Source of the DNA: Zymoseptoria tritici IPO323
Taxonomy: Eukaryota > Ascomycota > Dothideomycetes > Mycosphaerellales > Mycosphaerellaceae
NCBI RefSeq assembly: GCF_000219625.1
Contig: NC_018206.1
Span: 310,001-374,000 of the forward strand
Direction of reading: 5' to 3'
DNA: 64,000 nucleotides
A program made the translations under genes and the position numbers. This document shows, piece by piece, positions 5,815-34,402 of the stretch. Every line of letters starts with the position of its first letter. The first letter of the stretch is position 1. The notes beneath the pieces are model-generated. The model was not told the DNA's origin. It worked only from the letters and a program-made list of their open reading frames with translations, and made no database searches.

Positions 5815-5830
5815 GGTTATAAGCCCGGCG
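5815..5830 (+). promoter_or_regulatory. Primer-binding site complementary to initiator tRNA-Met anticodon arm
   Basis: Immediately after the 5' LTR the sequence is GGTTATAAGCCC. The complement of the usual fungal initiator tRNA-Met anticodon stem-loop is GGTTATGAGCCC, so it matches with one G-to-A change of RIP type. Priming from a half-tRNA cut in the anticodon loop is known for Drosophila copia and yeast Ty5. The tRNA sequence is recalled family knowledge, not present in this window. Confidence 0.6.
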
Positions 5831-5951
5831 TAACTACTACACACTTAAGGAAGAATTGTCTGTTCTAAGCGCAGCCACTAGAACCTTACTATACACTGTT
5901 TAGACAGTTGACTAGCGAGCCGAGAAAGAGCTAGTTATAACAACAGCCGCA

Positions 5952-11831: not shown

Positions 11832-12002
11832 TGTTGTAGATTATTAGACTAACTATTAGTGAAGTGCATGTGACTAGTGCTAAGGCATTCACACACACAG
11901 ATAGCTAAAGTGAGAATCTCACACTTAAGATTCTCTCTGCATGACAATATATACCTGCCAATCAGAGGTGTTCTTCCACTCAGCTTGAGTCCAATTACAA
12001 CA
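11832..12002 (+). repeat. 3' LTR of Copia element (171 bp)
   Basis: Same termini as the 5' LTR. Here the mutated states sit in the inner part (11832 to about 11881), while the outer ~90 bases keep C and G wherever the two LTRs differ. Confidence 0.95.
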
Positions 12003-12007
12003 AGTAC
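12003..12007. repeat. Target-site duplication AGTAC, right copy
   Basis: Perfect match to the left copy at 5639-5643. Confidence 0.9.
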
Positions 12008-13592: not shown

Positions 13593-13740
13593 TACAGCGG
13601 GTCGATGCATCGGAGTAGCCACCGCTAAAACCTTGCCTAAGGTTACGTGGCCTGTATACAAGTAATCGGACCAATCGAGTGACTCGAGTCCCTACTATAT
13701 GTATGGAGCGGTGGCTACACCGATGTGCCAACCCGCTGTA
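13593..13740. mobile_element. Candidate MITE copy 1 (148 bp with TA ends)
   Basis: 34-bp terminal inverted repeats at 13593-13626 and 13707-13740 (29 of 34 matching) enclose an 80-bp centre. Both ends are TACAGCG/CGCTGTA, so the element could be CAGCG...CGCTG flanked by a TA target duplication as in Tc1/mariner-type elements. Thirty end bases match copy 2 at 20 positions without gaps. No coding capacity. Confidence 0.6.
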
Positions 13741-14100
13741 GTTCAATCGCCGGGAATTGAGAAGTCTGGATATTCCAGGATACATCATACGAGGTGCAGC
13801 GTTGCGAACGCACCCCGAGCCGGACACGACGATGGCCTGATCAGTGGGGAACGAGCCAACGCAATCCTGCATATGCTTTCAAGCCTTGTCATGACGCTAT
13901 TCGCACCGCTTCTTTCACATTTCACATGCCCAACACTCAACTGGTCACTGCTTCGATGACAGTCTGTTGAATGCCTTTCAAAATTGCGTCTCGGAGGCTA
14001 CGCGATCTGGGCAAAGCGGAAAACCTTTGACCCAAGCAATGTCCTCAGGATTCCGTCTCGTTTTTACTCTGCAAGCGTTAGACTCGAGAGGGACCATATG

Positions 14101-14129
14101 TACAGCGAGTCAGCACATCCGACGGTTAC
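14101..14129. repeat. Orphan MITE-like terminus
   Basis: TACAGCGAGTCAGCACATC closely matches the ends of the element at 14264-14412 (TACAGCGTCTCAGCACATC). I found no partner terminus at the expected distance on either side, so this may be a broken copy. Confidence 0.4.
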
Positions 14130-14263
14130 AGCTTCTGTCATCCAAACATGGATTGCTTCACGAACGCTTCCCGAGCCAATACGAGCTTAGGCATCCGTCG
14201 ACCCTGCCCGAACCAGGCAATGATAAGGTCTTCGGAAGCCAGCGCTGATTCCCGTCAGCAGGA

Positions 14264-14412
14264 TAGAGCGTCTCAGCACATCGGAGGGATCACCGGCCAA
14301 TCCTTGTCCACAGGTTAATGGCCGGAGCACGAGGCAATTGCCCAATCCGACCCTTGATATGCCCCCTGGAGGCCCACCACAAGTGATCACTCCGATGTGC
14401 TGAGACGCTGTA
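14264..14412. mobile_element. Candidate MITE copy 2 (149 bp with TA ends)
   Basis: Terminal inverted repeats of 28 bp inside flanking TA: left 14266-14293, right 14383-14410, with two mismatches. Inside the left end a second short stem is possible (CCGGCCA at 14293-14299 with TGGCCGG at 14319-14325). Size, TA flanks and end sequence match the copy at 13593-13740. Confidence 0.65.
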
Positions 14413-15639
14413 CAGTCTGTGAGGTCCTCGTGTGAACAGGGCATAGCCTTGTAGCCAATATTCACGGGTATGAGCTCCCCGGGTCTAGCAGGAGGGTCTT
14501 TACAACGTCACTCAATGTATCGAATTCGCTGTATTTGAACAACTCAATGCTTTGCCGCCAGAGGGTCGGAAAGTCGCCCGAAGAGCCCGATGCTCATAAT
14601 TAGCTTTAGAGGCACTGTCGCCGAAGCAAGTGTCAGGTTTCACACAATCCTCCAACATCATCAAACCAAAGCATGCTGTGGGAGTCGTCTGCGGATACTC
14701 GCAACAATTCAAGACAGACTGTGTCAGCACTAGCGGTGGCATCAACAGATGTCAGCCAGGCTACCCACTATCCTCTCCAGGCATCCCCGTCGGTATGGTA
14801 AGGATGACAGTGCAGTCGTCGAGGGATACAATGGTGGAGTGCCTTGGAATCCGCCACCACATTCGAGCAGACCTTGTACGGTTTGCTAACGACAACAACA
14901 TGGGCGACTGACAGAACAACGAGGTCTGCCGACCAGGAAACCATGAGCCATTGGATAGCGTCAGCTTCCAAGCACCAGCCCAGTCAACATTCTTCGTTGA
15001 AGTTATAGATGAGAAATCGTGATCCACGTCTCGAGGGTAGAGCGAAGTTTCCGAGAGAGTTGTAAGTCTTGCACTTAATGATGAGCGGTCAAAGTCGACG
15101 GCGAGCGCAGTAGCGTGGACCCAGACTCTCCAGGTTCAGAGGCGGGCTAGGGACGCGTCCTCGTGTTCCGGGGGGCGGGTGAGTCAAGATTCAGCAAAGC
15201 AAGAAGCAAGGTTCCCCACTCATCGTCGAGTCGAAGGAAGTCGTCGTCGCACTCGTATCACGGACATCAAGGTCACGCTGCTGGTATTGGTGGAGGAGCT
15301 GCCGACGCCATTCCTGCGCATGGTTCATATGCTGGAGGGTTGGGACACCACACCTTGCTCTCGTTCTCACTCCACAAGCTTAGGTTATCGACCCTGACGG
15401 CCGCCGACGAGATTGTACCAGGACCAAGGGCATCTCGCTACCGATCTTGGTGATGAAGTCCGATGCCGCCAGAGCGGTGAGCCTCTCGCGAAGGGTATTA
15501 ATGCTCCCTAATCGTCTGCACGCTTGTCTTGACAGCATCGTCTCACTCCAACACCGATCCAAATATTCACACCCTCACGCCTTCGAACGATTACATCTAT
15601 CCCTCCAAGGCACGAGACGATCTCCATCCGCAACACAAC
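14413..15639. other. Gene-free stretch upstream of secreted Cys-rich protein
   Basis: No supported gene or repeat. The last part is presumably the promoter of the gene at 15640. I see no TATA box. Confidence 0.5.
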
Positions 15640-15976: not shown

Positions 15977-16471
15977 ACACAGTAAGACATCGCCTTGCAA
16001 CGACTTTCTTGCTGCTCGTACTGAACTCTGCATCAGATACATCCGCTCCCGCGTTGGTCTCTGGGACTGCGATGTAAGACTGGAGCACATCTGATTGCAG
16101 GAGGGATCGAGTGCCGTTCGGACGGTCGTGAGAGGAGGGAGAGATGGAAAGGGCTTCCACCTCTCCAGTCGTGGTAGATGAAGTTCCAACTACGAATTCA
16201 TTCTCTTGCAACGAACCCAGAGAGGTATTTCCCTCCGTCGAGGCTCGATATCACGCGTATGACAGTCCGGTTCAAGTTTTGTGCTCCGGCCGGGGTACGC
16301 ATACAGCCGATTGCCAGGTCTCGTCTGTGCCGTTCGTAGATGGCACTTTGATGAGTCGTGGGATGTAAAGGAAGACGAAAGATCAAGAGTGATGCTGGCA
16401 AAAGCGGCAATTACAGCCGAAAGGGGTTAGACTGTGGGGTCCATTTCTGGGGATGAAATGTGGGGAGGTAG
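15977..16471. other. Intergenic between secreted protein and RIPped 13.6-kb element
   Basis: Non-RIPped. Near its right end (16466-16494) lies a perfect 10-bp inverted repeat GAGGTAGTCT/AGACTACCTC. It overlaps the left junction of the next element. No gene seen. Confidence 0.5.
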
Positions 16472-16480
16472 TCTCAGGCG
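16472..16480. repeat. Candidate target-site duplication, left (TCTCAGGCG)
   Basis: The 9-mer TCTCAGGCG recurs at 30123-30131, exactly where RIPped sequence ends on the right. It may be an 8- or 9-bp target duplication of the 13.6-kb element. Confidence 0.45.
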
Positions 16481-16860
16481 CTCAGACTACCTCGCTTAAC
16501 GGGCCTATTAGCTGCAAGTAGCTGGCCCTACTGTAGGTAGTCTAAGGGTCTAGACGCGCTTTTTTCGTAATAGAGCGTAGTATTAGTATGTAAACACTAC
16601 TAACATACAGTGTAGCATTAATAACGGCTAGTAGCGACGATAGCGACACTAGGTATAATATTCAAATTTCGGATACTATAACTTTATATAACTAGACCTG
16701 CTAAACAACCTCCTGCTATCTATTTGTCTATACCTCCTTAGTAGCGACCTCTAATAGAGCTCGCGTACCTCGCATCTTAACAACGCGTTTATATAGCAGG
16801 ACGCGAGCTCTATCAGAGGTCGTAGTTAGCGACTAATGCTAACAAAACTATATCTACTAG
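16481..16860. other. Left end of 13.6-kb element, non-coding
   Basis: Holds the terminal repeats and RIPped sequence of no clear frame upstream of the helicase pseudogene. The true helicase start is not visible and may lie here. Confidence 0.5.
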
Positions 16861-19800
16861 AACCGTACGCGCTCCCTCTACAAAGTTACAGTCCCCGATT
16901 CTCTAATAGCTCCCCTAAAGGCCCGCCGTAGACAACTTAAGGTTGCTAATCCCCGATCTTACGCTAGCGATATCTCGAGTAGCTTTAGTACTAGCAGCAC
17001 CGGACAAGATAAGAACAGTACAGGGACGTCGGTCGTCGAGGAAAATCGATCGTAAGAGTAGTCTCCTAGTGTAGATATCGAGCGTATAGCTACCCTGCTC
17101 GACTAGTTCGATAGGTGCCCGGGCGACGACGACAGCAGTAATAGCGGGCTTTCGGACGTACCTAGTAACTTCGACGATGCAGGAGGGCTTTAGGGTAGTC
17201 TACAAGCATCTGTTAAGGCGTCCGAGGAAGATTTGTCTATATAGAAGGTCCTAGGTAGAGGGGATATAAGGATCTATTTCGCTAGGCGACGCGAATAGGT
17301 AGCTAAGATAACTGCCGCTCTGTTACGTACGCTAGTAGAGGTTAACAACGCAGGCATAGAGAAGGTCGTGCTTTAGGCGCTATATAATGCATAGCGGCAA
17401 AACACTAACCTGGAAGCTGTACGTTCTACCTAGCTTAGTCCGGTAGGCGCTAACGGCAAGCTAACCCTCGAGATACCTAAAGACATAGTTAGTAGTCTGT
17501 TTATGCTGTCGCGCCGGCGGGCGTTTCTTTAGGTACGCAATGCAATTAACTAGGCGATCGACGAGCCTATCCCTGTCGATAGCGGGCTACCTATAACTAC
17601 CGCTTAGCAGATACATTTAGTTTAGTAGGCGGTACGACTTCTCCTTCCCTACTACGCTCGCCCGCCGTAGGTCCGGGCACTCTACTAGCTGCTATTTAAC
17701 AACCGAGATCTTGTCTAGATCGCTGCTATGTCCGTAGGCAAGAGCCTCGTCTTCTAGGTGTAGCCTATTATCCGCAATAAGATGTCGATCCTAATCTTGC
17801 CCTTAAACTAGATTAGCAGGGAACAGTTTAAAAGGATCGAAGGCATAGGAGGTAAGCTAATTGCACTAACACATAATACGAAGGCTAGTACTACGGCGGA
17901 CGACTAGAAACTCCTGTATTCTAGCAGGTGCACCTACTTAATATTGTCTCTAGAGATAGCTATACAGTCCTAGTTCTAGAAGCTTATAACAAGGACCGAC
18001 GTATAGAAAAGGCTAGGAATACTCGTCTACGATAAGTTTTATCTCGTCTACTAGTAGGGCATTAAGGGAGGAGGATTCCGGAAATAGTATACCTAGCTAA
18101 AGAACCTCCGGACTATACTTTACAAGCGGGTAAAGTTTTACGGCTGCTCTACGACGCTTAATACGTCTACTCTACTCAAATATTAGAAGGCGGCTAGGTT
18201 CGACCCGGATACTTAGCTTATTCGCGATCTAATCGATCGGCCGGAGATATCGATGCGGTGTTATACTATTCCGGACGGGATGCTAACGAACTAGTAGGCG
18301 CTTCGGTATCTGCTCGCAGACCTAGTCGGCCCGGACGGCATTACTAGACCTTAGAGCGTAGAGAAGACGGTCGTCTTTATTAACAGCCGTGCCGGCATCT
18401 ATACCGCTACTACTAGTCTCCGGGCCTATATCTAAGTAAGGTATCCTAGTTAGCTAAGTTCGGACGAAGTACACTAGCTCGTAAGGACTTACTACGGCAG
18501 GACTGTAAGGAGGACTTAGGCAAATGTTATCCGAGAGTTCCAGAAGCCCGACTCCTATATCCGCATCCTTCTAGCTACTAAGGCGCTTAGCCTAGGGGTT
18601 AACTTACCTAACATTAAACGCATTGTGCAGTACCGACTAGCTATAAACAGCACTATGCGTACTATTATCTAGCGTACTAGCCGCGTAGTCCGAGATAGTC
18701 GAAAATAGGGAGCTAGTTCGTTTACGTTCCTACATAATCCGTAGATGCTCGGTAATTAGGTTATACAAAGGCCGCCGGACTCTTAGGTCCCTACGAGATA
18801 GCAGAGCTAAGCAGACGACGATACCGCAACGCCTACGAGCTCTAACGCTAACATAGATTGCCTGTTAGACACTAGTTTAGATGTTAATAAGCCTCTTTAG
18901 GTTAGCTAGTCGAAGAAAAAGAAGGGTAAACTAACGAATTAGCAGAAGCGCGACAAGATAGATAGATGTGTTTAGAAGTTTGTTAACGCTTGTCCGCCGA
19001 GCAGTATGTCCTTTCTACCGTCTTGTCGCCGCGTTGCAGCACTTAAGTTGTTTTCCGAGGTACCTAGGCCGGTAGCAGGACGTATCTGTTGCGATATCTG
19101 CTCGCCGGCGTCCGCTCTGCCTTCGGATTATGTGCTCGAATAGGCGACTAATCTAGGTACTCGTACAGCAGCAAGCATTACCCGGCTATACCTTAAGTCG
19201 ATCCGCGATAGTCTAATTAAATAGGAGTCCGGAGCCGCTCGGTTATACTATAGCAACGCTATCTTTCCGGGAGTTCTTAGGTCTCTACTACCTTCGTATG
19301 TAGTTAACTACCTTGCTAAAGCGTACAGTATAGAGGACGCGCTACCTAATTTTAGCTATAGCCGGATTTAGGGACTCTATATAGGTGTCGACTTCGCAGT
19401 CTCTTCTAAGTTGTGCGACATACTAGCACTACAGTTGTCGACCCTACGCAAGGTCGCGGAGTCTATTAAAGCCTAGCGGCTATAGGAGCTTGCGACTAAG
19501 CGCGAAGGTCGGGAGAGGGAGCGCTAGGAGGAGCGCTAGCGCTAGCGGCTCCGACGAGAAGAGGCCTCTTCTAGTCGAGAACGGGATTGTTTCGCAGCCT
19601 CTTAGGAAGTAAGGTCTGCTAGTGCTCCGGACCCTCGTATTGTCGCCTTTACTGCTAGCAGTGCTCGTTCGGTCCTTGCTTATATACCCTCCCCGGTATT
19701 GCCTACCTCCTTAGTCGTTACTAGTTCTAAGCGCCGCCGAGGGAAGGCAAAAGCTCCTCCTCTGCCTGCTCCCGGCCTGTCTGCTAGCGCCTAGCCTCTA

Positions 19801-20127
19801 CCTCCTACGGCAGTTCCTAGCCCTACAGCGGTAGGCTCTCGGAAGGGCAAGAGCGCGGCTTCTAGTCCTATTATCGCCCGAGCCTCGCCGGTGCGCAGAT
19901 TCGGCATAGAATTAGATCCTAATCGTCGAGGCTCTCGTGCGCCTACTCCTGTTTCTCTAGCATCCTCCGAAGCAGCCTAGTCGCCTATAACTATAGAAAC
20001 ATCTTAAGGCAGGAAGCGGGTCGTAAACGGGGTTTATTAGCGGCATCGACTCGGGTAGATTAATAGTTATATAGATAAGCTAAATAGAGAGAAGAGGTAG
20101 TCGGCGCTAGGTAGTTTGTTTTACTAA
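16861..20127 (+). pseudogene. RecQ-like superfamily 2 DNA helicase, closed by RIP-type stops
   Basis: A single frame runs for about 3.2 kb with no frameshift, broken only by TAG/TAA codons. Seen in order: Walker A region AAMSVGKSLVF (17722 on); motif II as D-K-F-Y (18031-18042), explained from D-E-x-H by G-to-A and C-to-T; motif IV KTVVFINSRA; motif V LLATKALSLGVNLPNIKRIV; motif VI RTSRVVRDSRK (18673 on); then a RecQ-type zinc region CRRVAALKLFSE...ICCDIC (about 19025-19105). A basic, Pro/Ser/Ala-rich tail follows. The protein would have unwound DNA; helicases of this sort are known in subtelomeric and mobile fungal repeats. Start and end are approximate. Confidence 0.75.
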
Positions 20128-20239
20128 GAATGCTAAGTTATAAGTGTATTTTTAGCTACTAGGCTCTTAGTTAACATTAGTTAATACTATCGTCGACCTT
20201 ATCTTAAGCTAAGTTAATATTAATATCTTATAATATAGA

Positions 20240-23200
20240 TTAACAATAGTTAGCTTCTAGTTCTCGCCGTATACGTAGTCCTCGTCTACCTGCCCCCTAG
20301 TCGCTATCTAATTCGCCTAAGGGCTCGCTGCTACCTACGACCAAAGCTAGCTAGCAGACGAAACCTAAGCCGACTAGGAGGAAGAGAGGGAACAACTAGT
20401 ATAGCGACTCGAAGTCCGCTCGCGAGAAAGTGGACTTTATACTACAGACTATTCGCGGGCAGCACCTGTCGTTCGAGGACTTCCTAACGCTTTATATAAC
20501 GACTAAGAAAGAATAGAACATACCTAACTAGGGCGAGCGGGCGGCTACTAGGGCGGCAAAGTTAGTACGGATTCTATAGGAGGATAAAGTAGTAAAGTGC
20601 ATCGCACTATATATGTCTAATAGTAAGTAGCTAAGTACTGCGAGTCTAGCGAAAGAGCTCGAGGATCTAAAGGGACGGAAGGTAAGCAATATTAGTACGT
20701 ATAGGTTCTATTACTAAGTCTATATAGGAATTCGGGTCTTAGGACAGAAAACTGCCCGCAGAAGAACTAGATTACAGAGACGCGGTAGTAGCTATAGGTT
20801 AGTACGTCCTATCTATTTAGGCTCTTATAAAGGAGCTCTTAGGCTTGCCGGCAACTTAGGATCTCTCTAAGTTAATGCTCCGCTACATTAGTCTTATTTC
20901 TAGTATGCTTCTGCGTATAAGACATCCTCGATCCGGGAACTAGTTCGCTATGTAGTTAGGAGTGTACCTGTAGAGTTAAGGTGTCAAACGTCGCGTTCTT
21001 GTAGTCCTAGCTAGACTAGGTATATGCGGATACCTAAAGAGTATATACCGTTACAACCGGATGCTCTACGACCTAGCTGCCGGTCGTATTAAGGCATTCG
21101 GCCGGTCTAACCTTACCTATAGTATATTCGACAACCTAGACTACTTTGCCCGCGTCGGCTAGCATAGCTTCGGTAGGCGGGACGTCCTAAAACATGTTAC
21201 TACCGCAAAATAGTTTAAGAGTATCGAGGTGCTACGCTTAGGCCTAAAGAAAGAACTATTCCGAAAGGATAGGCCGCTTTAGCTACAAGACATCCTAGAT
21301 AGCCCGGGCAACTAGCACGACGCTTAGTAGAAGGCGATCTTACTCTACTTAATCGCAAGCGCTATAGTAAGGGTATATTTAGCTAACGTTGCATAGGCAT
21401 TCGGTATCGAATCTAACGATTCTGTTTTAAAAAAGAAACCGAAGAAGAAGAAGAATGTTAGCTAGGACCCTAGTATTAGTAGAGATACCGCTACTAGTAG
21501 CGAAGCTAACCCTAACGGCATCGACTAGACTAAAGTAAAGGGCTTCCCTTAATTCCCGGCTTTTAATCGTATAGTAAAGTAGAAAACTATTAGTACTACT
21601 ATAAATCTAATCTACGAACAAGAGGGTACGACCGAAGGTACTTATAACATTATAAAGAATATACTAGAGGAGTAACTTAAGCTTAGGGAATTGTATAAAC
21701 AGGCCGTTAAAGGATAGAACGTAGACTAGATCTGCCGCCCTAGTAATTTCGACTGCTACGAACGCCCTCCTACTACTTAGACCTAGCTCTCTACTAGGCA
21801 GACCTAAGTGCCCGCTCCTCTAAATTAGTCGCCTATAGCTAATAACTATCGTCCCGGCATACAAATTTAGCCCCCCTCCTCGCAATATTAGCCGCCTACC
21901 TCGCAAAGCTGCCCTCCTAGCTTATAATATTAGCCGCCTACCTCGTAAAGCTGCCCTCCTAGCTTATAATACCAGCCGCCTACCTCGTAAAGCTGCCCTC
22001 CTAGCTCGCAATATTAGCCGCCTACCTCGTAGAGTTAGCCTCCTAGCTTATAGTACTAGCTGCCTACCTTATAGAGTTAGCCTCCTAGCTTATAATACTA
22101 GCTGCCTACCTCGTAGAACCGCCTCCCTACGCTACGGAATCCGCCTCCTACTAGTCGAGACTAGCCCCCTAGTACTCGTAATCGACTACCTACGGACGGA
22201 GAACGTGCTAAGGACGACGTTCTGCGTGTTCGACGGCTAGTCGAGGACTTTATAGGTAGTACGTATAACCCCTCTAGGTATATTCTACTAATGTACGGCG
22301 ATTAGCTCTCCGTAAGCAATATGTAGACGTGGCTAAAGGAGTCCCGGGAGAATAAGGACGATTTTAACTACATATAATAGGTACTGCTATTGCCTAGGCT
22401 CTTCTACCTTAAGATGTGTCTAATATAGGCAATCGAGAATAATTTTAATAGCAGAGAGGGCTGCCGGGCTAAATCGTTACTCCTAGTACACTAGGAGATA
22501 ATAGAGCAGAAGATATGTCTATTATTTTACGCGCCGCATAGCTACCTAGAACGACTGACACTCGACAGCTTTAATACAAGGGTGCTAGCATTCGTATATA
22601 AAGAAATCGACCCGGTAGTTCCTAAGAGGTATGTTATATCTAACTACATCCAGGCGCTGTTAGCTAACGGCTTTATAGGTCTGGTCGGAAAGGTGTACGA
22701 GAAGGTGTTCTCGCCGTCTGCTCGTCGCCTAGAACCCGATGCTATTAAAGCTAATACCTAGAAGGCAAAGAATTTATACTCCTCGAAGAAGTAGTAGGGG
22801 AAGAAGGCAAAGGCGACTAAAAAGGCAGCTGCCCGGATTAATAGAAACGAAGAGCGGAGAAACTATGTCCGATTCCTATATATCGTCGAGACGTATTATA
22901 TACTTAGCCGGGCTATTAAATATGCGGACATTAGCCTACTACGTCGAGTCGTTAACCGCTGTATCCTAATCTTCTATGTACGTAGCTACAAGAATTACGC
23001 TTTTATTATACTATAGATAAAATGGCTAACCGATTCTAAGGCGTTAGATCTAGTGCTATAAAGAGCGATACTAGCAAACGGGTTCGTAAACATAGCGGGT
23101 GCTAAGGACAGTTAGTTCGAGATTAACCGGGCAAACGAGTTCCTTAATTAATACCTAAAGACTCTTATTAGTAGCCGCCGTAATAGGACATTCGACGTCG

Positions 23201-23691
23201 AGAATTAGCTAGAAGAGGCAACCCTCTTAGTAACGCATACTAGCTATCTACGAGAGGTTATAGAGGCTGGCTTCGGGGAGTCTACAAACACAAAGCACAC
23301 GTCCCTAAAATTAGTTAAAGAGGTATATGCTATCGCAGCGGCATGCTAGGACGAGACGTTAAAGACTAAAGAAGTCGATCCGGATCCTAACGTAGTAGCC
23401 TAGTTTTACGCTATAGACCTGTATGCTATAGGTGTTAAGAACCTAGTAACTCTAATTAAGAATGTTAGCCGTCTAGAACGCTTTAATAAGAACGTAGTAG
23501 TTAAAGGACAACAGATTGTATAGGCCGACTAGCCCTTATTGTCTATTAGCATAGAGCTTCCGGACCTAAGGACGGACCCTTACTTGCAACGAGCGGTAGC
23601 GACCGACCTAACACCTAGACTTATTATATTATCCTAGGATCCGATAGACGGATACGAATTAGAGCTTTTACAACAAGGCGAGGTAGAGTAA
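20240..23691 (+). pseudogene. DUF6589-like protein, RIP-inactivated, one intron
   Basis: Exon 1 (frame from about 20240 to 20681) encodes a basic N-terminus followed by VDFILQTIRGQHLSFEDFL. A GTAAGC...TCTTAG intron (20682-20742) leads into exon 2, which stays in one frame to TAA at 23689-23691. Exon 2 carries GVKRRVLVVLARLGIC, YSIFDNLDYFARVG, HSFGRRDVLKHVTT, then the 42-bp minisatellite and, near the end, LQRAILANGFVN-like and FEINRANEFLN motifs (one residue read through a stop). From memory these resemble the fungal DUF6589 family, whose function is unknown. All interruptions are stops made by transitions. About 1130 codons. Confidence 0.62.
21892..22101 (+). repeat. 42-bp coding minisatellite, five units
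   Basis: Five consecutive 42-bp units (14 codons each) with partial units on both sides. The encoded unit is PPTSQSC PPSSQYQ with stops read as Gln, a Pro/Ser/Gln linker in the middle of the DUF6589-like frame. Units differ mainly by transitions. Confidence 0.85.
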
Positions 23692-24008
23692 TGTTAGTTA
23701 CTTCGCTAGTCGCTACGTACTATATAGGAGCAAACCGGGCGTAGTAGGGCGCTATTATGCGCCTGCTATCGTTAGCTGATTTACCGAAATTTACAGGCAT
23801 TAATTGTGTTAACTACATAGGTGCCTCCTAGTATATCTACCGCCCTATCGACATTATTACTCGGAACTCTTCTATCTACTAACAACATCTCGACTCTACT
23901 TTATTATCTACTTCCTTATCTACTCTCTTGTCTACTTTATCTACTAATTAACTATCTCTTCTATTACCTACCTTCGCAAACGTACGCGAACTCGAATACT
24001 AGCTTACT
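23692..24008. other. Spacer with pyrimidine-rich tract upstream of paralogue A
   Basis: Contains a run of CTACT/TATCTACT-like units (about 23830-23990), probably the promoter of paralogue A. A similar tract precedes paralogue B (26560-26640). The open frame across it is low-complexity and not a gene. Confidence 0.5.
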
Positions 24009-25604
24009 ATAAGCACTCTTACGAGCGGTAGAAGCCTCTCGGGTCTCTAGCGACTAGCCGACTTTAGCGAAGCCCTACTAGGCACTAATTAAGACTAGTA
24101 CAACGCGGCATACATCTAGATATAGGCGAACTAGTTCAGCTAGCTAAAAATACGGATATTAGAGCTCGAGGTAACAGCGTTTATCGTTAAGCTTTATAGC
24201 GTCCTTACATAGGAGGATAGTGCTATACTAGATCTACTTAAGAGATTTATACCTAGGTTACACGCCTCTAGCAGACCGTACACCGAACTTATGCTTCTCC
24301 TCGACAGCCGAGCCGACTAGGCGAAGCTTATTCCCTAGGACAAGATCGCTACGCGTATGCGCGGCCGCAACGATTTCTACCTATATATAAGCACTACTTC
24401 GCTTTCTGCGATCCTAGCTAGCTTTATAGTAGGTGCCGAGCGCATAGGCGAGCCGGAGGAGAAGGATAGTTAATACGGCTGCAACTAATACGGTCTATAC
24501 GATAACTAGAAAGGCTTCGTTAAAGGCTGCTATACATTCCCGGCGCCGGATAGTTTGTCTAAGCTCTGGTCGGGCGCGTATACTAACTGCCTACTAGACG
24601 GCAATAAGAAGGGATGCAGCATTAGCAGAAGGAAGTTATCGCAAGTTTACGATAGGCTAGCATCTAAAAACATAGCTAATACGTCGACTAGATAGCGCAA
24701 CGATCCGCTATTAGTATTACTTGGACGCGTCCTGGCCGAAGTTAATATTATAGACATCTTCGACGGAGATAGTGTCCTAGATGCCGTTAGCTATCCTACT
24801 TCGAACGACTCTATCCTACAAGAAGACTGCCTAGTAGGTACACTTAACATTCTATTCGTCTTTAGCTAGTACGATACTATAGAGGCTTACGTCGGTTAGA
24901 TAGAAAGCGTAGCGGCTAAGACTATAGAAGCATATCGGACTACTATTAGGAATACCGCTATAGCTCGAGACCAAACTAAGATAGCCGCGGCTGAGGAGAG
25001 ACAGGTGTCCTTATCCAGATCTAAAGACTCTATACTAGTGTTTAGCATGCCGAAGGCTAAGGTCCGAGAGCGCAAGCAGTATAGGAGTACGAGATTAGAG
25101 CAACTAACTTAAGGTAGGAGGGTTCCTGTTAACGAGGACCGTTCTAGGCGCCGCTCGGATCGAAAGAATTTGCCTAGCAGCTTCGGAGAAATAGACGTCG
25201 AAGATAAAGACGATCTAGTCGTCCCTTCGGCCTAGAAATCCAGAAGGAAGAAACTAGTACTTACCGACCTGTTTAGTAGCCCCGAGCCGGAGACTACGCT
25301 AGCGAAGAAGCAAGCTTTAATAATAAGCAACATCTTTAGCAGCTTGCTAAGCAGTCGTAATAAGAGTCGCATAGTAACCTAGCCTTCCTAGCCTCGCGCC
25401 TCGTAGCCGCCTAGGCGGAGGGTCTACAAGCCGCGACAAATTTCAGACGAGGAGATAGTCGACGCTAGAGGGGACCGAGATGTTACTATAGAGTCCGTAC
25501 CTACGGGCACTATAAGGCCCAGTAGGAGCAACAAAGTAAACAAGAGTAATCGCCGCCGTAAGCGGTAGTTAGATAGCTATACTAAGATACTAGAGCTTGC
25601 TTAA
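24009..25604 (+). pseudogene. Paralogue A of an unknown gene family in the 13.6-kb element
   Basis: About 530 codons in one frame with RIP-type stops only. The codon aligned with paralogue B's ATG is ATA here (24009-24011), a TG-to-TA change that removes the start. Shared with B: LSAILASFI, IGEP, QYG, KG or VNGC(Y/F)TFP, AYTNCLL and a long basic, Ser/Arg-rich C-terminal half. I recognise no domain. Two hairpins of a conserved type follow at 25674 and 25825. The stop chosen (TAA at 25602) could itself be a mutated CAA. Confidence 0.55.
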
Positions 25605-25673
25605 TTTATAGCGCCTATACTGCTATTTTGGATTCGCGTTTTGCTTTATTACCTACGTAGCTGCTATGCTGCC

Positions 25674-25702
25674 GTCCTGTCGTTAGGATGGCCCTGTAGG
25701 AC
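25674..25702 (+). ncRNA. Conserved hairpin, copy A1
   Basis: Stem GTCCT (25674-25678) with AGGAC (25698-25702) around the core GTCGTTAGGATGGCCCT. First of four copies; see the finding on covariation. It may act as RNA or as folded DNA. Confidence 0.5.
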
Positions 25703-25824
25703 TAGCGACCGCTTCTTAGCATTTGTTTAGCGCATTGCGCCTTAGATTTTACGAACGGTAGTTGCTCTAACACGACATGCTAATTAGCAATAGACTACAA
25801 GCCTGTTATTAAAGGTCTGTTCGC

Positions 25825-25851
25825 ACCTGTCGTTAGGATAGCCCTACAGGT
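25825..25851 (+). ncRNA. Conserved hairpin, copy A2
   Basis: Stem ACCTGT with ACAGGT around CGTTAGGATAGCCCT. Lies about 150 bp after copy A1, downstream of paralogue A. Confidence 0.5.
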
Positions 25852-26006
25852 CGATAGCAAGTTGCTAGATACATTCTTCGAATTAAACCTTAGTATCCCT
25901 ATTAGCTATCGCCTTACATTACTTAGGTGTTGCGTAAACCTAGTAGTGTTATAAATAGGAGCGCAGCTTCTTCATCCGTATTATACTTATTATCCGAGCT
26001 GCTATA

Positions 26007-26296
26007 ATGCCGGAGTCTAGGACTTACATTATGCCTACGCTAAAGTAGGCGGGCCTAGTACATATACACGGACTAAGGAGTCTAACATAGCCTCGAGGCT
26101 CGTAAATATAAGAGGAGCTATAAGACGAGGTCTGAACCGTAGACCGGAATGAATCTTAGATCCGGCTATACCGCATACCTTATAATTCCTAGTACTACTA
26201 GAATAGCTAAAGTTACTACTAAGTCCTTACTACCGGAGCGAGGCTAATAAGCTATATAACCGACTTTACGGCTAAGATCTTACTACTAAAGTGAGC
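26007..26296 (+). pseudogene. Possible small gene, RIP-inactivated, unknown
   Basis: ATG at 26007 opens a frame of roughly 95 codons closed by TAG, TAA and TGA codons that are all one transition from CAG, CAA or TGG. With those read through, the composition is protein-like (Gln, Tyr, Arg, Leu-rich). No family recognised. It may equally be chance. Confidence 0.25.
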
Positions 26297-26773
26297 CTAG
26301 TAAACTATGTAACCTAACCGCGACGATAAGTGATATCGTGCTCCCTAAACACCTACGTGCAAGGCGCGATAGTAAACCTATTACGCGCTGTCATACGCGT
26401 AGGAGGGGCCGCGTAGTGAATTCACGAGCTAGCTAACGCACTAACTAGCCGACTCGAAAGCGGTAATTATGCTGGCTACATAGAGGGCAACCTGCGTATA
26501 TCTACAGCCCTACTAACCTCGTTTCTTAATCTTCTTTCTCTATCCTTTATTAACCTCCTTCCCCTTCTGCCTTCCTTACATTATCTACTATATTATCTAT
26601 TATACTATCTATTATACTATCCGCTATACTATCCGCTATCGTCCGCTTACGTCGAGTAGGCTACTATTCGTAACTGCGCTGCCTTATTAGAAGCAGCTAT
26701 TGTAAGCTTATAACTTCCTAACATTTACCGCGATTTATAATCTAAAGACTAACGAGACTATAGTACTACCGAA

Positions 26774-28462
26774 ATGTCTAAGACTCTAGGAAAACGCGCG
26801 AAGATTATCCGCGACGGTCTCGAGCGCCTAGCGAGCTAGGGCAATGCGCTATCCGGAACAGACTAGGAGGAGTACAAGGCTATTATAAGGTAGCTATAGA
26901 AGTATTAGTTCGGCTACAAGCGAGTCGAGCATACGAAGAAGAGTATCGCGGAGTTTATTAGAAAGCTTTATTAGGCTTTATTATAGGAGGATAGAGCGGC
27001 GGTACAAAAATGTAGAGAGTTTATCCTATCGACTTATACAAATAGTCGCCCTTATAGCGAACTAGAGTCTATCCTGGATTCTTTAGCAAGCTAGGCGAGG
27101 CTTATTAGCCCGTAGGAAATTAAGGACCGTCTGCGCAGCAACATAAACGTTAACCTATAAGGAAGCGCTACGAAGCTTAGCGCTATCCTAGCTAGCTTTA
27201 TAAAGGGTACAAATAAAATAGGCGAGCCAGACGATAAGGTAAGTTAACGTAGCTACAACTAATACGGACTATCTTTAGACGCGAAAGGCCTGGTTAACGG
27301 CTGCTTTACGTTTCCTACGCTAGACGGCAAATCTCTCCTCTTCGGCGGCGCCTATACGAACTGCCTACTTAATAGTAGTTACTACTTATACAGCATTAGT
27401 ATAGTCCCGGTAAAGAAGCGCGTATCGCGTGCGAGCAAAGGTGGTAAGCAAGAAGAAACTTAGCTGTTGTTATTGCTAAATAGAGTTACCTAGCAAGTGC
27501 GCATTAGCGAGATCTTTAATAATAGTGCTAGTATCCTAGACTCTGTTACCTATCCTACCTTAGACGACTCTATCCGGGTAACTAACCGCATAGTAGGTAT
27601 GCTAAGCGTTCCCTTTACCTTTAGCCGGAACGACAATGCTGCTATATACGTTAGACGGATTAAGAGCGCATTAAAGGACGGAGTAGAGGAGTGTCGGTCG
27701 ATACTACGTAATTAAGAGCTCCGGAACTTATCTAAGTCCGATGCTAGAGATGCTTAGTCGATAGGATCGGGTATTTCGAGGCTAAGAATAAAGACTGTAA
27801 GTCTAAAGAAGAAGACGCCTCGGAGGACAACTAGTAGGATAGAGGAGGAGCTAGAGGAACTAAGGAGGGAGCCTAAAGACTTCGCGCGTAATTAGCGCCG
27901 TATTACCCGCTCGCAGAGCACTACCTAGTAGCCCTAGGCGGACGAGATAGAGGTAGACGATTAGCTAGTAAGCCGCCGACGTCGTCGCCGCTCTAAGAAG
28001 ACTTCCTAACTCTCGCTAGAGTTTGTACGGGAGGACTTAGATAAGGATCTCGAGGGGATCTAGACGTCTAGCCGTCCCCCCTTTAAGGATAGTAGGATAG
28101 TTAGTTCGAAGGTAGATAAGACACCTAGCAAGAAGAAGAAGGGTAGTGTTTTCTCGGATATAAACTTAGGCTTAGGTTTTAGCCCGGATCCTAGTGTAGA
28201 ACCGGAACCCCGGACTAGAGCGATAGGGATGTTCGACAGGTTCCGTAGCCGTAGTAGCTGCTTAGTTGCGCTATTAAGTGCAGTAAAGCCTCGTACAGCG
28301 GAGGTACTAGCTCGTCGAGCATACAAGCCTCGGGATTAGGACACGCGTATAAAGGATCTCGGTAAGGACGACATAACCTAGGACCTTATTAACACGTCTA
28401 CTAAGGCAGGAAAGTAGAAGCGCCGCGAGTCTAGCTAGGGCGGTCGCTACCGCGACCGCTAA
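26774..28462 (+). pseudogene. Paralogue B of the unknown gene family in the 13.6-kb element
   Basis: ATG at 26774 (MSKTLGKRAKIIRDGLERLA) starts a frame of about 560 codons with TAG/TAA stops and no frameshift. The N-terminal half aligns with paralogue A throughout, for example LSAILASFIKGTNKIGEP, GLVNGCFTFP and GAYTNCLLN. The C-terminal half is rich in Lys, Arg, Ser and acidic residues and lacks visible domains. The 3' end is uncertain: TAA at 28460 is taken as the end but may be a mutated Gln codon. It is followed by the second pair of conserved hairpins, as A is by the first pair. Confidence 0.55.
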
Positions 28463-28593
28463 GAAACGGAGCGACAGGTGCGGATAATAGGAGGGCACTA
28501 CAGAGCATACAGATGTTTTAACTTGGATTTTAGTACTTTTATTGCATTTACTAGCATCGCGCTACGACTTTAGTAGAGTAGCATCGAACTTAG

Positions 28594-28618
28594 CCCGTCG
28601 TTAGGATAGCCCTACGGG
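28594..28618 (+). ncRNA. Conserved hairpin, copy B1
   Basis: Stem CCCGT with ACGGG around CGTTAGGATAGCCCT. One stem pair is C-G where copy A2 has T-A. Confidence 0.5.
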
Positions 28619-28741
28619 TAGAGCGATTGCTAAGCGAGCATTAGATTTTACGCATCGCGACTCCTATATAAGATAGGAGTAGAGACGAGACATAACGCGG
28701 ACAGCAGTAGACTACAAGTCCTAACATCGCTGTCTAATTCT

Positions 28742-28768
28742 ACCTGTCGACAGGATAGCCCTATAGGT
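28742..28768 (+). ncRNA. Conserved hairpin, copy B2
   Basis: Stem ACCTGT with ATAGGT (one G-T pair) around CGACAGGATAGCCCT. About 150 bp after copy B1. Confidence 0.45.
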
Positions 28769-29164
28769 TAAAAGCATACTTATAGTTAAGTCCTTTTTAA
28801 TACAACCCTAGTGCCTTTATAACCCGAACCGTCTTATTTACTAGTACTCTAGCAAACGTAAGGCTCCCTTTTATTAAACATTGCTATATAACAATAGAGT
28901 TCGCTGTAAGATCATAGAACACGCGAGGCGATTACTATTCTTATAGCACTTTAGCATAACTATTTATTAGATAAAGGCCGGCAACGTAGATAAGTCGACA
29001 GCTACGTACGAATAGCAATTAGTAGCTAACAGAATTTACTAACGAGATGCTAACGTTGCGCCGCGTAGCTAGGCGACCGAATAGCATACAAAATAACCCC
29101 GTAAGAGCCTCTAAGACTTCTCTCGAACACTAATATTAACAACTATTAAGCGAGACTAGTAAGC

Positions 29165-30088
29165 ATGCCTTAGCTGCCTAGGCAAACATCCGAACTATAC
29201 TAACATTCGCTAGACACTATATGCTTCTCCTTAGACGACTAGTTAGTCTATCGTAGTGTTAACCGCTACCCGAAGTAAGGTCTACGAAAGTTACGCGCCT
29301 TCCGGAACTACTTAGAAGAAGAGCGCTAGGCGCAGCGGCAGGACGAGCGTATAGCGTAAGAACAAGACTTCGAATCCGTATACGATCTTCTAGTACGGCG
29401 CCTATCCGACAACCGCGATTAGTTACGATACGGAGGCTTAAGATACTATATAGGAAGCTCTAACTACTACTATATAGATAAGACACAAGAATCACATTTA
29501 GGACAGCGCGTAGAGGGGAGGCTAGGGATAAGGCTAGATAACGGACGTAATACTAGAGATACTAGGCGGACGACCCGAAATCTATGGCCCGCCTAAGTTA
29601 ACAACCTGTTTATAACGCGGCTAGCGCCTCGTAGCATAGCGCCGTCGACTTATCGTAATACAGGACAGCATCCCTGTGTCGAGACTATAGCAACTTAGTT
29701 AAGTGTATATAGTCGCTTAAGCCGACGACTAAGAGCTTATCAACCGCTATTAACGAAGCAGAACCTAGCGGATTAGCAGAGCAGGGCGGCAGCAATTAAG
29801 GCCAAGGAGGAACGCGCGCGGCAGCGTCTTACTATAGCGGACAAATAATATAGTACTAGCGACGGATATAGGGGCGCAATAGACATAGGCATAGTAATTT
29901 TAAGCTTTTAGCATAAGAATCTAGCTACGATACTAGTTAGAAACTAATACCCCTACTACGCACGACAGCGATAGAATTACAGCATAATTTTTATAGTAGT
30001 ACAATTAGATCGACATGTAGCTTCTTATATATACCTTAATTATACGATAAAAGTAGTTTTGAATTTTCGATGTCGCGGCGCTACATAG
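29165..30088 (+). pseudogene. Unknown gene at right end of the 13.6-kb element, RIP-inactivated
   Basis: ATG at 29165 begins a frame with RIP-type stops only, reading on to about 30088. The middle is clearly protein-like (LRKLRAFRNYLEEER, then FESVYDLLVRRLSDNRD and LRYGGLRYYIGSSNYYYID), with charged coiled-coil-like stretches. No domain recognised. Coding probably ends before 30088. Confidence 0.45.
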
Positions 30089-30122
30089 CATTACCTAAAA
30101 ACGCTGCTGGGCCCTCAGACCC

Positions 30123-30131
30123 TCTCAGGCG
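30123..30131. repeat. Candidate target-site duplication, right (TCTCAGGCG)
   Basis: Same 9-mer as 16472-16480, at the point where RIPped sequence gives way to normal DNA. Confidence 0.45.
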
Positions 30132-30724
30132 AGGCGCTCGAAGAGGTTAGTGCTCGCCAAGAGGGTCTGTGCTTCTGAGACTAGTGGGGAGGAAGTCGTG
30201 TGTGTTGAGCGACCTCACTTCCATCACAGTCCAACGCTTGCTGCGGTAGCAAGACACGCTGCAAAAGTCCATCGTCGTGTCGATGTTGCTCTGGAACAGC
30301 TTTGCCCACATGCGTCAGACTGGGAGCTCGATGTACAGCAAGAGGGAGCAGAAGGCGCAGGTAAGTTCGAAGGATGGAGCTGCCTCGCCGAGGACGGCAA
30401 ATGTGGGACGGAGATCCCTACTACCTGTGCTGATCGGCCGTGTGAGGTGAATGAGGGAGAGGTATGTTCTGGATGGCTCTTCGTCCCTTTTTGACCTTTC
30501 TTTGATACTCTCATTCCTCATACTCTGAACAACGACCTGGGAATTCCGACTGGCCTGCTGACATTGCACCACTGTGATCTACTGGACTGCCTCGGTCGTG
30601 GTGTCGAAACTGGAATATACGCTTGCGATTCACTGCCGACGCAATTGAAGTTCACATTCATCCGAAAAGAAGCCTACCAAAGGTTCTCAAACCGCATCCA
30701 AGAATCTTTCCTACCACTTGAGCC
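30132..30724. other. Intergenic, upstream of alcohol dehydrogenase
   Basis: Non-RIPped. Open frames on both strands overlap each other and show no domain. Taken as promoter and 5' leader of the gene at 30725. Confidence 0.5.
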
Positions 30725-32464
30725 ATGGCCTTCCCTCGCCCAACCCGCGCCTTCAGATCTCCTCTCACCGCGGAAAATCTTACCAAGACGACCGCCATCG
30801 TTGCTTCTGAGCCCGGCGAAGATCACAAACCCGCCGCCAACTGGTCTCTTCAGGAAGTCTATATTCCGACGGAGTTGAACGATGGAGAAGTGCTGGTAGA
30901 AATGGTCGCCACTGGAATCTGTCATACCGACATCTCGTTGACAGGACCTGGGATGGCGCAGGGGTTTCCGATTGTGCCAGGGCATGAAGGTGAGTGTTTG
31001 TGTGGTCTTTGTTCGAACGGCGATCCATGTGGATGCGGTCTCAGTGAGCTCGCAGCTGGTAGAGGAGCTTTGAAGTCCGGTATCAATGGCAGCTCGCTTC
31101 AGGTGGAACATCAAGGATCCAGACGGTCAAAGGCCCAGCAGCCGTCCACGAGTTATCGGCGGCAAGCAGAAGGGAGACGGAGACAAGCCAGCACCACCTG
31201 TCAATCACAGCTAACCCGATTCGCCTCCAGGCTCAGGCTACATCCGTGCCCTCGGCCCATCCATTACCAAATCCTCCCTCCAAGTCGGCGACCCCATCCT
31301 CCTCTCCTTCGACCACTGCACCGCCTGCCCATCCTGTACCTCTTCTTCACCGGCCTACTGCGACACCTTCGCTCCCTTAAATCTCTTCGGCGAGTCCTCC
31401 GTCTTCCACTCGTCCTCCTCTCCCTCGGAGTCCAATGCTATCGGAGGCAAGTTCTTCGGCCACTCTTCCTTCAGCAAGCTCTCAATCGTCAAGGAGACGA
31501 GTATCCTCAGCGCAAAGGGTTTGGTGAAGGATGTGGAGGAACTGAGATTGTTCGCGCCACTCGGATGTGGGATTCAGACGGGTGCGGGTGCGATTTTGAA
31601 TCTGGTGAAGCCGGGAAAGGAGGATGTCGTGGCTGTCATGGGCTTGGGAGGAGTGGGGTTGAGTGCTGTTATGGTGAGTTTGTCTTTGACGCTTTGTTGC
31701 TGGAGGACCTTGTGAGAAAATGGCAAGATGGTGAATCACGATAGCCAAGTGCTAACGAGGTCATGAATAGGCTGCGAAGATTGCTGGCTGCAAGTCAATC
31801 ATTGCCGTTGACCGGGTGGAGTCAAGGATTGAGGAGGCCAAGTCCCTCTTTGGTGCCACGCACGGCTTGAACACGACTGGTATAGAAGATCTCGCAGCAG
31901 CCTTGAAGGAGATCACAGGCGGCAGAGGACCCAACGTTGTGATAGAGAGTACGTCTCCCACTCCTCTCAGCCTCCAGGGTTCCAGCCCTCCTCGATGCTG
32001 ACCACCACCCCATAGCAACCGGCCACCCCGCCGTCCTCGAACCAGCCTACGCCTCCGTCGCAACAAAAGGTTCCTTTGTCATCATCGGCGGCCCACCTCA
32101 AGGCTACGAGATGAAATTCGACTACGTCCAGCACTTGTTCCGCGGGATCAAAGTGTTTGGATGCGTGGAAGGGGATTCCGTGCCAGAGAAGTTCATCCCG
32201 GAGATGATCGCGTATTATCGAGAGGGGAAGTTGCCTGGTATGGTGTGCCTTGTTTGTCTATTGGAAAGTCTTGAGCGGCCTGGTGGGTACGTTGCTGATC
32301 TAACGGTGTAGTGGACAAGATGGTCAAGTTCTACAAGGCGGAGGACTTTAAAGAGGCGCTGCATGTAAGTTGGATCTTTGCGATTTGGTTTGTTCCGGAA
32401 CTGACAAGAAGGTCAACAGGATATGCACGCCGGCAAAGCGATCAAGCCAGTGCTTGTATGGTAG
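30725..32464 (+). CDS. Zinc-dependent alcohol dehydrogenase (aryl-alcohol/NAD-type), 401 aa, six exons
   Basis: Medium-chain dehydrogenase that oxidises alcohols with NAD(P). Exons 30725-30989, 31231-31673, 31771-31948, 32016-32237, 32312-32364 and 32420-32464 keep phase throughout. Catalytic zinc ligands are in GICHTD (Cys about 66) and PGHEGSGY. The structural zinc loop has four cysteines (HCTACPSCTSSSPAYC). The dinucleotide-binding turn is GLGGVGLSAVM, preceded by PLGCGIQTGAGA, and the C-terminus is KAIKPVLVW. The first intron (241 nt) is long for this locus. The gene begins 600 bp from the RIPped element. Substrate is not determined; the GCGIQTGAGA segment recalls aryl-alcohol dehydrogenases. 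It converges on the next gene, 205 bp apart. Confidence 0.9.
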
Positions 32465-32668
32465 GTAGGTAGGTAGACTTCTCCATTGGCGCACCCCCAA
32501 CTGTGCTTTCGGGAGCGGGTCGCAGCGTTGCAGAGCGAGGACCTCGAGCAGATACTTTGGACCGTCTCGATGCAGTAGTAGCCCTTCAAATGAACGCATA
32601 TGGTACAAGCGTGGAACTGAAATGTACACCAAACCCTATCAACGATTCTACATCCACACATTTCTACA

Positions 32669-34402
32669 TCACTCACAATCCGGATTCAACCCACTTCTCT
32701 TGCCCAAGACCGGCACCTCATCCCTGACCTCCCTCGCGACAACCGCCTTCTTGCCCATGACCATCTGCATGAAGCTGTAATTCACCACACACTTCACTCC
32801 TAATTCCTCGCCTCTCCTCACGATATATCCATTAATGTACTCGATCTCCGTCCGCCTCCCCGCCCTGACATCCGCGAGCATAGAGCTTACATTCCCAGCC
32901 GTCTTCTTTGCCACAATCGTGTACAATTTTTCCAGTCGCTTGGCCGAGAAGCGCCACTCGACATTCGGTAGGTGGCGGAGTTCAGGTAGCGACCGCATGA
33001 CGAGTGACGTTTCAGCGAGCAGCATACGCGCTGTGCGGACGAGGTGGAAGGAGGAGGAGCCGAGGACTGCACCGTTGCGGGCGTCGAGGAGAGCAGTGAG
33101 AGGATTGATGATAGAGTTGACGGCAAGTTTTTCGAGTTGCAGTTGAAGAAGGTCGAGAGGGGTGTAGCCTACGGCTGCAAGGGCGGGAGTGCGGGTCAAC
33201 GTGCGGATGATGTAGCGGGCGGTTTCGGGGTAGTGTCTTTGAGATGTCCCAGGGACGTCTGCGGAGGATGGAGTAATGGGGACGAAGGATGTAGGGTTTG
33301 AGAGGTCGGCTTCGGATTGTTCAGCGGCTGTGTCGGATGGAGTGGGTTGCGGCTCCTCTCGAGGGAGAATCGCAAGAGAGATTGTGCCGTGGCCGGCGTG
33401 GATGACATAGAAAGGGTCGCTTTCAGCTTTCTCGGGAGGAGTGTTCGCGCCGTGATTTATTACACCTTGGACATATGTCGGTCGGGTGGCCTCGTTGGGG
33501 AAGACCTGCTCATTGACGACGTCGATGACGCCCATTCCATTTTGCAAAAAGCAGATTGTGCTGTTCCGATTCAAGCGATGTTTGACCGATGCTAGAGCCC
33601 CAACGGTCGTCACGGTCTTGGTCGTGACAATCAGATTGTGGATCATGTCGTCCTTGACGTATGGCAACCCGGCTCCGCGTGGATTCATGGTAATGCTCTG
33701 TGGATTGGTGTCGATCGGCTCGGAAGCCATCTGCTGTGGCTCCGAATCTTCTTCAGCTGAAATCTCCTGAACGTGCTCTTCCTGTGCTGGCGCTTCCTGG
33801 ATAGACTGCTCCTGTGCAGACTCTTCCTGGCGAGAAGTTTCCTCCTGCGCAGCAGCCTTCTGCCCAGCTTGCTGTTGCTTCACGATCGCCGCCACATTAT
33901 GCGGCAGCATGCCTGTCGAATCTGCCATGTCCCAGACTGAATTCTGTCCCCGCTGTAGCTCAATCCCATGCTGCCTAGTAACCATAGGCCGTAGTTCAAC
34001 ATCAAACCCTCCTCTCGGAACCTCCGCCTCTCCATCCGCCACTGTAATCACCTTCCTCCCCTTGTTCCACGCTTGCAACAATTTATACCGATGAAACAGC
34101 AGCGTGATTGGCGGTGGATCCGGGATTCCTCTCAAAGCATGCGCCACGAGCTTTCCTATACTCCCTGTCCCGATAATGTGTATCCTTCGATCCGCGGGTT
34201 GAATCGGCGCGTGCTGACGATCGATTGGCGACATGGACTCTTGTACACTCCGTTCAAAGGCCTCCCGATCCGGGAGGTGCTGTCTTAACTCCCGTTCCCT
34301 CAACTCGTTGCCTTCCTCATCGCTCTCCACCTCTTCTTGCGAAACTGCTTCTTCCTCCTCATTATGCCTCCGATCATTTTCCGCCTGCGCCTGAGCTTCC
34401 AT
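32669..34402 (-). CDS. 2-dehydropantoate 2-reductase (ketopantoate reductase), 577 aa
   Basis: Reduces ketopantoate to pantoate with NADPH in pantothenate/CoA synthesis (PanE/ApbA family; yeast PAN5). Single exon. The N-terminal 70 residues are acidic and charged. A Rossmann turn IHIIGTGSIGKL (about 74-85) is followed by a cofactor-domain segment with TTKTV and FLQNGMGV. The C-terminal domain has LEKLAVNSIINPLTAL and TEIEYINGYIVRRG, the helices that carry the catalytic Lys/Asn and the substrate Glu. A Gln/Glu-rich insertion (about 174-230), longer than in bacterial enzymes, splits the N-terminal domain. Start at 34402 is the first ATG of the frame. It is transcribed divergently from COQ4. Confidence 0.88.
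   Translation of the reverse strand: MEAQAQAENDRRHNEEEEAVSQEEVESDEEGNELRERELRQHLPDREAFERSVQESMSPIDRQHAPIQPADRRIHIIGTGSIGKLVAHALRGIPDPPPITLLFHRYKLLQAWNKGRKVITVADGEAEVPRGGFDVELRPMVTRQHGIELQRGQNSVWDMADSTGMLPHNVAAIVKQQQAGQKAAAQEETSRQEESAQEQSIQEAPAQEEHVQEISAEEDSEPQQMASEPIDTNPQSITMNPRGAGLPYVKDDMIHNLIVTTKTVTTVGALASVKHRLNRNSTICFLQNGMGVIDVVNEQVFPNEATRPTYVQGVINHGANTPPEKAESDPFYVIHAGHGTISLAILPREEPQPTPSDTAAEQSEADLSNPTSFVPITPSSADVPGTSQRHYPETARYIIRTLTRTPALAAVGYTPLDLLQLQLEKLAVNSIINPLTALLDARNGAVLGSSSFHLVRTARMLLAETSLVMRSLPELRHLPNVEWRFSAKRLEKLYTIVAKKTAGNVSSMLADVRAGRRTEIEYINGYIVRRGEELGVKCVVNYSFMQMVMGKKAVVAREVRDEVPVLGKRSGLNPDCE

Follow-up and report, generated by a model that had tools for sequence, protein, structure and literature searches.

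A RIP-inactivated transposon of Zymoseptoria tritici, most likely of the AcademH lineage, with a RecQ-type helicase, a DUF6589 gene and a duplicated DUF3716-like gene

The window analysed here is a 64,000-nucleotide stretch of the Zymoseptoria tritici IPO323 genome (NC_018206.1, positions 310,001 to 374,000 of the forward strand; coordinates below are those of the window), and within it lies a gene-bearing block damaged by repeat-induced point mutation (RIP). We find that this block is a complete cut-and-paste DNA transposon, inactivated by RIP and most likely a member of AcademH, a lineage of the Academ superfamily; to this reading we give a probability of about 0.83. The assignment is made because the terminal inverted repeats (TIRs), the 9-bp target-site duplication (TSD) and the RecQ-type helicase of the element all fit AcademH, and it replaces the view of an earlier, sequence-only reading that the block belongs to a class that cannot be named.

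BLASTN of the window against ten further full-length copies from the same genome, in line with a check that the sequence-only reading had proposed, gave the true ends of the element. The complete transposon spans 16469-30183 (13,715 bp) and both borders recur in every alignment of the window with the ten copies; the limits first drawn were 16481-30122, and the true ends lie 12 and 61 bp further out. The left TIR (16469-16487, plus strand, TAGTCTCAGGCGCTCAGAC) begins at the start common to the ten other copies, and the right TIR (30165-30183, minus strand, TAGTCTCAGAAGCACAGAC) was placed from the element end together with a TIR pattern search. The two repeats are imperfect, matching at 16 of their 19 bases, and directly outside them the same 9 bp, GTGGGGAGG, flank the element on the left (16460-16468) and on the right (30184-30192) as a perfect TSD. 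A perfect 9-bp duplication is found in 25 of 26 long copies of the window's family (family 1) and a related family described below (family 2), and the remaining copy matches at 8 of 9 positions. As read from the flanks, the window and the ten aligned copies account for ten perfect duplications and the 8/9 one, five additional family-1 pairs and nine family-2 pairs for 14 of 14, and one more family-2 copy for the last; the count leaves out two family-1 copies and one family-2 copy in which one end is unmatched by the exact TIR pattern. That pattern, TAGTCTCAGNNGCNCAGAC, has 84 matches in the 39.7-Mb genome and its reversed control has none. The TIRs expected of AcademH are thus seen in the window, in the other copies and in the genome pattern search, and the duplication has one of the two lengths, 9 or 10 bp, described for that lineage.

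About 18 long family-1 copies with the same ends are interspersed through the genome, as the earlier inference of a repeated unit had anticipated. A 2-kb piece used as query was matched almost end to end, at 93-100% identity, in 17 places, and two more places resemble the pieces of one split copy; protein B (below) as query found 18 genes each of type B and type A in the window's family, gene counts from such protein searches being lower bounds. The copies sit inside contigs, for example 1.98 Mb into the 3.86-Mb contig C2, and the copy closest to a contig end is ~40 kb from it, on C20. Where the element had been called mobile or subtelomere-type, its shared ends and target duplications bear out the former and its positions inside contigs argue against the latter. 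Insertions or a deletion alter the size of some copies, among them L021/L022 (~1.5 kb more), L011/L012 (~0.75 kb more) and L017/L018 (~0.36 kb less). Three short elements, 123, 421 and 1371 bp long, combine both family-1 ends with internal deletions and, in all three cases, perfect 9-bp duplications; because each occurs singly, either movement as a short unit or deletion in place may account for them. Clear multiplication is seen in a gene-less short subfamily that has the family-1 right end and is characterised by its right ends: a 502-bp piece of it is matched in 17 places, the query included, along 491 bases or more and at 88-100% identity. All nine unpaired TIR ends that were fetched match the right end of the element (82-99% over 73-125 bp).

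The TA/AT ratio is 1.9-2.3 in every 1-kb bin starting from 17,000 to 29,000 and 0.4-0.7 outside the block (bins starting 12,000-15,000 and 30,000-33,000), in agreement with the earlier description of a RIP-damaged block with sharp edges. Transitions make up 7,839 of the 7,907 mismatches between the window copy and the ten others in their long alignments, and 5,750 of the mismatches fall in a CpA/TpA or TpG/TpA context. The alignment of all 11 copies has 13,336 ungapped columns, of which 2,393 are variable and just 33 are neither C/T nor G/A; of the 22 two-state transversion columns, 21 set a single copy apart, and the one that does not falls in the tandem repeat of the DUF6589 gene. RIP and indels aside, the 11 aligned copies are almost identical, and it is this near-identity that points to a recent, star-like burst of the family. 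Stops are pervasive: at least 23 are present in every one of the 18 B genes, the family-1 helicase and DUF6589 matches found in the genome search all contain them, and 30 helicase codons are stops in 11 of 11 aligned copies. The stops common to all 11 would be explained either by RIP hot spots or by a source that had been damaged beforehand. RIP is uneven between copies, two of which retain C/G at 179/264 sites changed in the other ten.

The helicase gene (16861-19980, plus strand, frame +3) is broken by 59 TAG/TAA codons and has matches in Pfam, NCBIfam and the PDB. Scanned alone, it contains a DEAD domain (E 8.7e-8; 17662-18168, protein residues 268-436) and a Helicase_C domain (E 2.8e-11; 18352-18693, residues 498-611), both on the plus strand, and against the PDB it matches RecQ 4tmu at E 1.2e-9. 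RECQ1 chains match at E 4.5e-5, with the best stretch in the C-terminal zinc and winged-helix part of RECQ1 and no single stretch significant alone; this weak match marks a probable RecQ C-terminal part at 19015-19512 (plus strand, residues 719-884). The RecQ-like helicase with zinc cysteines described earlier is therefore confirmed as a helicase and only weakly in its zinc part. Over 16624-20100 it is 40% identical in amino-acid sequence to its family-2 counterpart.

Following on the same strand is the DUF6589 gene (20722-23643, frame +3, stop-broken), which is 53% identical to that of family 2 over ~1005 residues and has a probable 5' exon at 20112-20684 (plus strand, frame +2) with 35% amino-acid identity to family 2 (E 4.6e-21) in a predicted exon structure. 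The DUF6589 domain itself (profile positions 101-410) lies at 22267-23298, residues 533-876 of the protein from the gene alone, with E 1.8e-28 in the whole-frame Pfam scan and 3.9e-30 for the gene alone, bearing out the DUF6589-like protein of the earlier reading. The Pfam search of the six stop-read-through frames that it had also proposed found DUF6589 and Helicase_C, both in frame +3, and nothing in the other five frames at E 0.05 or better. A 42-bp tandem repeat within the gene (21884-22115, plus strand) breaks the alignments of several copies, and its unit number probably varies between copies.

We consider DUF6589 to be probably the transposase of the element, of the Academ type, because a RecQ-type helicase adjoins 36 of the 38 DUF6589 loci of the genome, including seven of nine distant ones. 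In each of the 36 the helicase lies within 20 kb; the 20-kb surroundings of such helicases amount to 3.8% of the genome. The 38 loci comprise 18 family-1 copies and 11 family-2 copies, 29 that are not independent, and the nine distant loci, where the seven helicases are all convergent with DUF6589, leaving C18:474716 and C3:1594739 as the two loci without one. The earlier statement that no transposase is visible does not hold if DUF6589 is, as seems likely, the transposase. Neither DUF6589 nor DUF3716 is named in the literature searched.

Genes A (23970-25580, frame +2) and B (26669-28465, frame +1), both stop-broken and on the plus strand, are two paralogues of one family, as had been proposed, with 34% amino-acid identity over 561 residues (E 2e-63). 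Both are DUF3716-like. For A, three of ten other copies scanned pass the DUF3716 cut-off, eight have E below 0.01 and two have no match; the window's own A, at E 0.28, falls under the cut-off. For B, two copies were scanned, of which L016 passes the cut-off and the window's own is without a match. Ten family-1 places are listed in the genome-wide DUF3716 search, five in A and five in B, nine of them above the cut-off, including four of the five in B. By our reading of the aligned rows, many copies have had zinc cysteines converted to tyrosine by RIP. The duplicated A/B gene is the unusual part of the element and probably encodes a zinc protein. DUF3716 matches outside the transposon families occur at C7:1709132, C7:1715393 and C1:5994392, where the frames run for 663, 386 and 231 codons without a stop; these loci, two of them 6 kb apart on C7, are possible host relatives of A and B.

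An 18-nt motif stands in two copies after A (25679-25696 and 25829-25846, the latter being GTCGTTAGGATAGCCCTA) and in two after B (28597-28614 and 28746-28763), all on the plus strand. With at most one mismatch, GTCGTTAGGATAGCCCTA has 57 matches in the genome and its reversed control none. Every match is found downstream of an A/B-type gene and on its coding strand: 30 belong to the 18 A genes, all of which have at least one, 18 to 16 of the 18 B genes and nine to nine of the 11 family-2 genes. They lie 132-576 bp from the end of the protein match, apart from one at 7,490 bp. Because the motif is paired with the same spacing of 149-150 bp after both A and B of the window, gene and motif pair were probably duplicated together as a module. 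The motif may itself derive from coding sequence, since, by our reading, both A motifs, the first B motif and the family-2 motif are in the frame of the preceding gene; as an RNA hairpin it gives z-scores of -2.6, -0.7, -1.8 and -1.6. Also downstream of A, a 53-bp stretch (26050-26102) is 85% identical between families 1 and 2. A possible further frame at 29204-29848 (plus strand, frame +1, 214 codons) is the longest stop-free stretch common to 11 of 11 copies and has neither a family-2 counterpart nor a Pfam match. It corresponds to the additional frame of the sequence-only reading and, with the helicase, DUF6589, A and B, makes up the five or more same-strand frames counted there.

Family 2 comprises 11 copies, exemplified by C5:1396002-1407575 (11,574 bp, perfect TSD), and protein P0005 found its A-type gene once in each, with one copy split in two rows. 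It shares with the window element the TIR core, the 9-bp duplications, the gene order of helicase, DUF6589 and A-type gene, and the 18-nt motif. It differs in having one A-type gene instead of two, its proteins are 40% (helicase), 53% (DUF6589) and about 25% (A/B) identical to those of the window, and its A-type gene is without the DUF3716 match seen in the window's family. At the more distant loci, helicase and DUF6589 are instead in opposite, convergent orientation, and protein searches at E 0.001 and the DUF3716 genome search detected no A/B-type gene there. One of them, on contig C18 (C18:115874-122945; locus L031, C18:114284-122798), is free of RIP, with stop-free frames of 575 codons for DUF6589 and 682 for the helicase, and is the exception among 41 DUF6589 matches in the genome, the other 40 of which contain stops. 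The best candidates for its ends, combining TIR and TSD, match at 11 of 20 positions, no better than 20 shuffles (9-12). The pair is possibly a surviving or co-opted copy. Nearby, a stop-free 344-codon frame (C18:131544-132452) resembles the C-terminal half of the C18 helicase at 28% identity, and a 51-bp remnant at C18:125263, 94% identical to the right end of the element, lies beside the pair in low-RIP DNA.

Several alternatives have to be weighed against an AcademH transposon. The foremost, which is compatible with AcademH membership but which we think unlikely, is that the copies spread as a long non-autonomous unit moved by the proteins of another element, for instance a pair like that on C18. 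The stops in all 18 B genes, the 30 shared helicase stops and the gene-less subfamily at 17 places would all suit such a history; RIP hot spots also yield shared stops, however, RIP differs from copy to copy as the retained C/G sites illustrate, and the C18 pair has no recognisable ends and a helicase that is about 28-31% identical. That the element is a Mutator-like element (MULE) incidentally carrying a helicase agrees with the TIRs and with the 9-bp TSDs, the usual duplication of MULEs being 9-11 bp. We hold it improbable, given that a search of the six read-through frames at E 0.05 or better detected no MULE or other named transposase domain and that helicase and DUF6589 recur jointly, also at seven of nine distant loci, and we reject it. 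An equally slim prospect is that the element is a TIR transposon outside Academ, representing a new superfamily whose transposase, DUF6589, forms a class so far unrecognised. In its favour are the silence of the literature searched on DUF6589 and the putative character of the DUF6589 assignment to Academ, but both the TSD length and the RecQ-type helicase coincide with what has been published on AcademH and fungal Academ. A subtelomeric repeat of the telomere-linked RecQ helicase kind, suggested by a RecQ-like helicase in a repeated unit, has practically no chance of being right: the copies are interspersed inside contigs with TIRs, and the target duplications refute it.

Several points weigh against the AcademH assignment and the roles we give its proteins. 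The Academ placement was made on TIR, TSD and helicase, and DUF6589 is a putative Academ transposase; the NCBIfam recQ_fam match of the helicase has E 5.1e-15 yet scores 55 bits against a cut-off of 220; and the role of the helicase is inferential. The AlphaFold models of DUF6589 (4 sequences) and of B (5 sequences), with mean predicted local distance difference test scores (pLDDT) of 31.9 and 33.9, were discarded, so that an RNase-H fold of DUF6589 is conjectural, and the family-2 A-type protein is without any Pfam match at E 5.

As a working mechanism, the DUF6589 protein would act as a DDD/E transposase on the TIRs, binding them and inserting the element with a 9-bp stagger; by eye, the D of FDN and the D of GDQ in its sequence are candidates for the first two acidic residues of the triad. 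The RecQ-type helicase might unwind or remodel DNA while the element is excised, while strands are transferred or while gaps are repaired. A and B could be accessory zinc proteins with a DNA-binding or regulatory function, and the family would have spread in one recent burst, with RIP damaging every copy afterwards. Decidedly more tentative than the AcademH assignment is the possibility of an AcademH sub-lineage of three to four genes with its own regulatory or targeting module, made up of a DUF3716-like gene and the conserved downstream motif, duplicated in the window's family, whose protein may bind the motif and in which DUF6589 would be the Academ transposase domain. These findings give a large and seemingly unclassifiable repeat of a RIP-active fungus an AcademH-type name and an anatomy of ends, duplications, sister family and short relatives. 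For the Pfam family DUF6589 they suggest a function that can be put to the test, that of Academ transposase; they also bring forward a possible accessory gene and the DNA motif linked to it, and the convergent pair on C18 provides long undamaged frames suited to biochemistry.

Elsewhere in the window, a second RIP-damaged block (5600-11900) is a Ty1/copia-type element (RVT_2 E 1.3e-24), and within it ARAGORN places a tRNA gene at 10683-10754 on the minus strand (tRNA-Cys, anticodon aca). An Rfam search of 5000-31000 at gathering thresholds found only a tRNA, outside the transposon.

TIRs are a trait of the Academ superfamily. Among other known systems, KolobokH duplicates TTAA, Helitrons have neither TIRs nor a target duplication, Starships carry a DUF3435 tyrosine-recombinase captain, and Maverick/Polinton elements have DNA polymerase B, an integrase and a 5-6 bp duplication. 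KolobokH is excluded by 9-bp duplications of varied sequence, Starship by the absence of DUF3435 from the six read-through frames, and Maverick/Polinton by the 9-bp duplication and the failure to find DNA polymerase B or integrase in these frames. Helitron is excluded by the presence of TIRs and a TSD and by the absence from the six frames of its PIF1 and Helitron_like_N domains (PMC10799480). Closer to the window element are the fungal Academ copies of PMC6416283 (2019), with which it shares PF00270 and recQ_fam helicase domains, the latter below its cut-off here; the passage on these copies names neither DUF6589 nor DUF3716. AcademX belongs to the same superfamily as AcademH, and in the account of PMC10045372 its duplications are 3 or 4 bp and those of AcademH 9 or 10 bp, a difference tied to whether a nuclease or a helicase is encoded; with 9 bp and a helicase, the window element falls on the AcademH side. 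The new gene set announced by the sequence-only reading is accordingly new in part at most: helicase plus DUF6589 is found in family 2 and at seven distant loci, and the helicase has been published for fungal Academ, while the DUF3716-like A/B genes, compared within this genome, may be new in such an element. AcademH (Kojima 2020), taken here from the papers that cite it (PMC10045372 and PMC10799480), is reported in the latter as occurring in low copy number in Basidiomycota, Ascomycota and Mucoromycota. The window element resembles it in its 9-bp duplication, its DEAD/Helicase_C helicase and its ascomycete host, and differs from it, as so described, in having ~18 copies, a length of 13.7 kb and two DUF3716-like genes with their motif.

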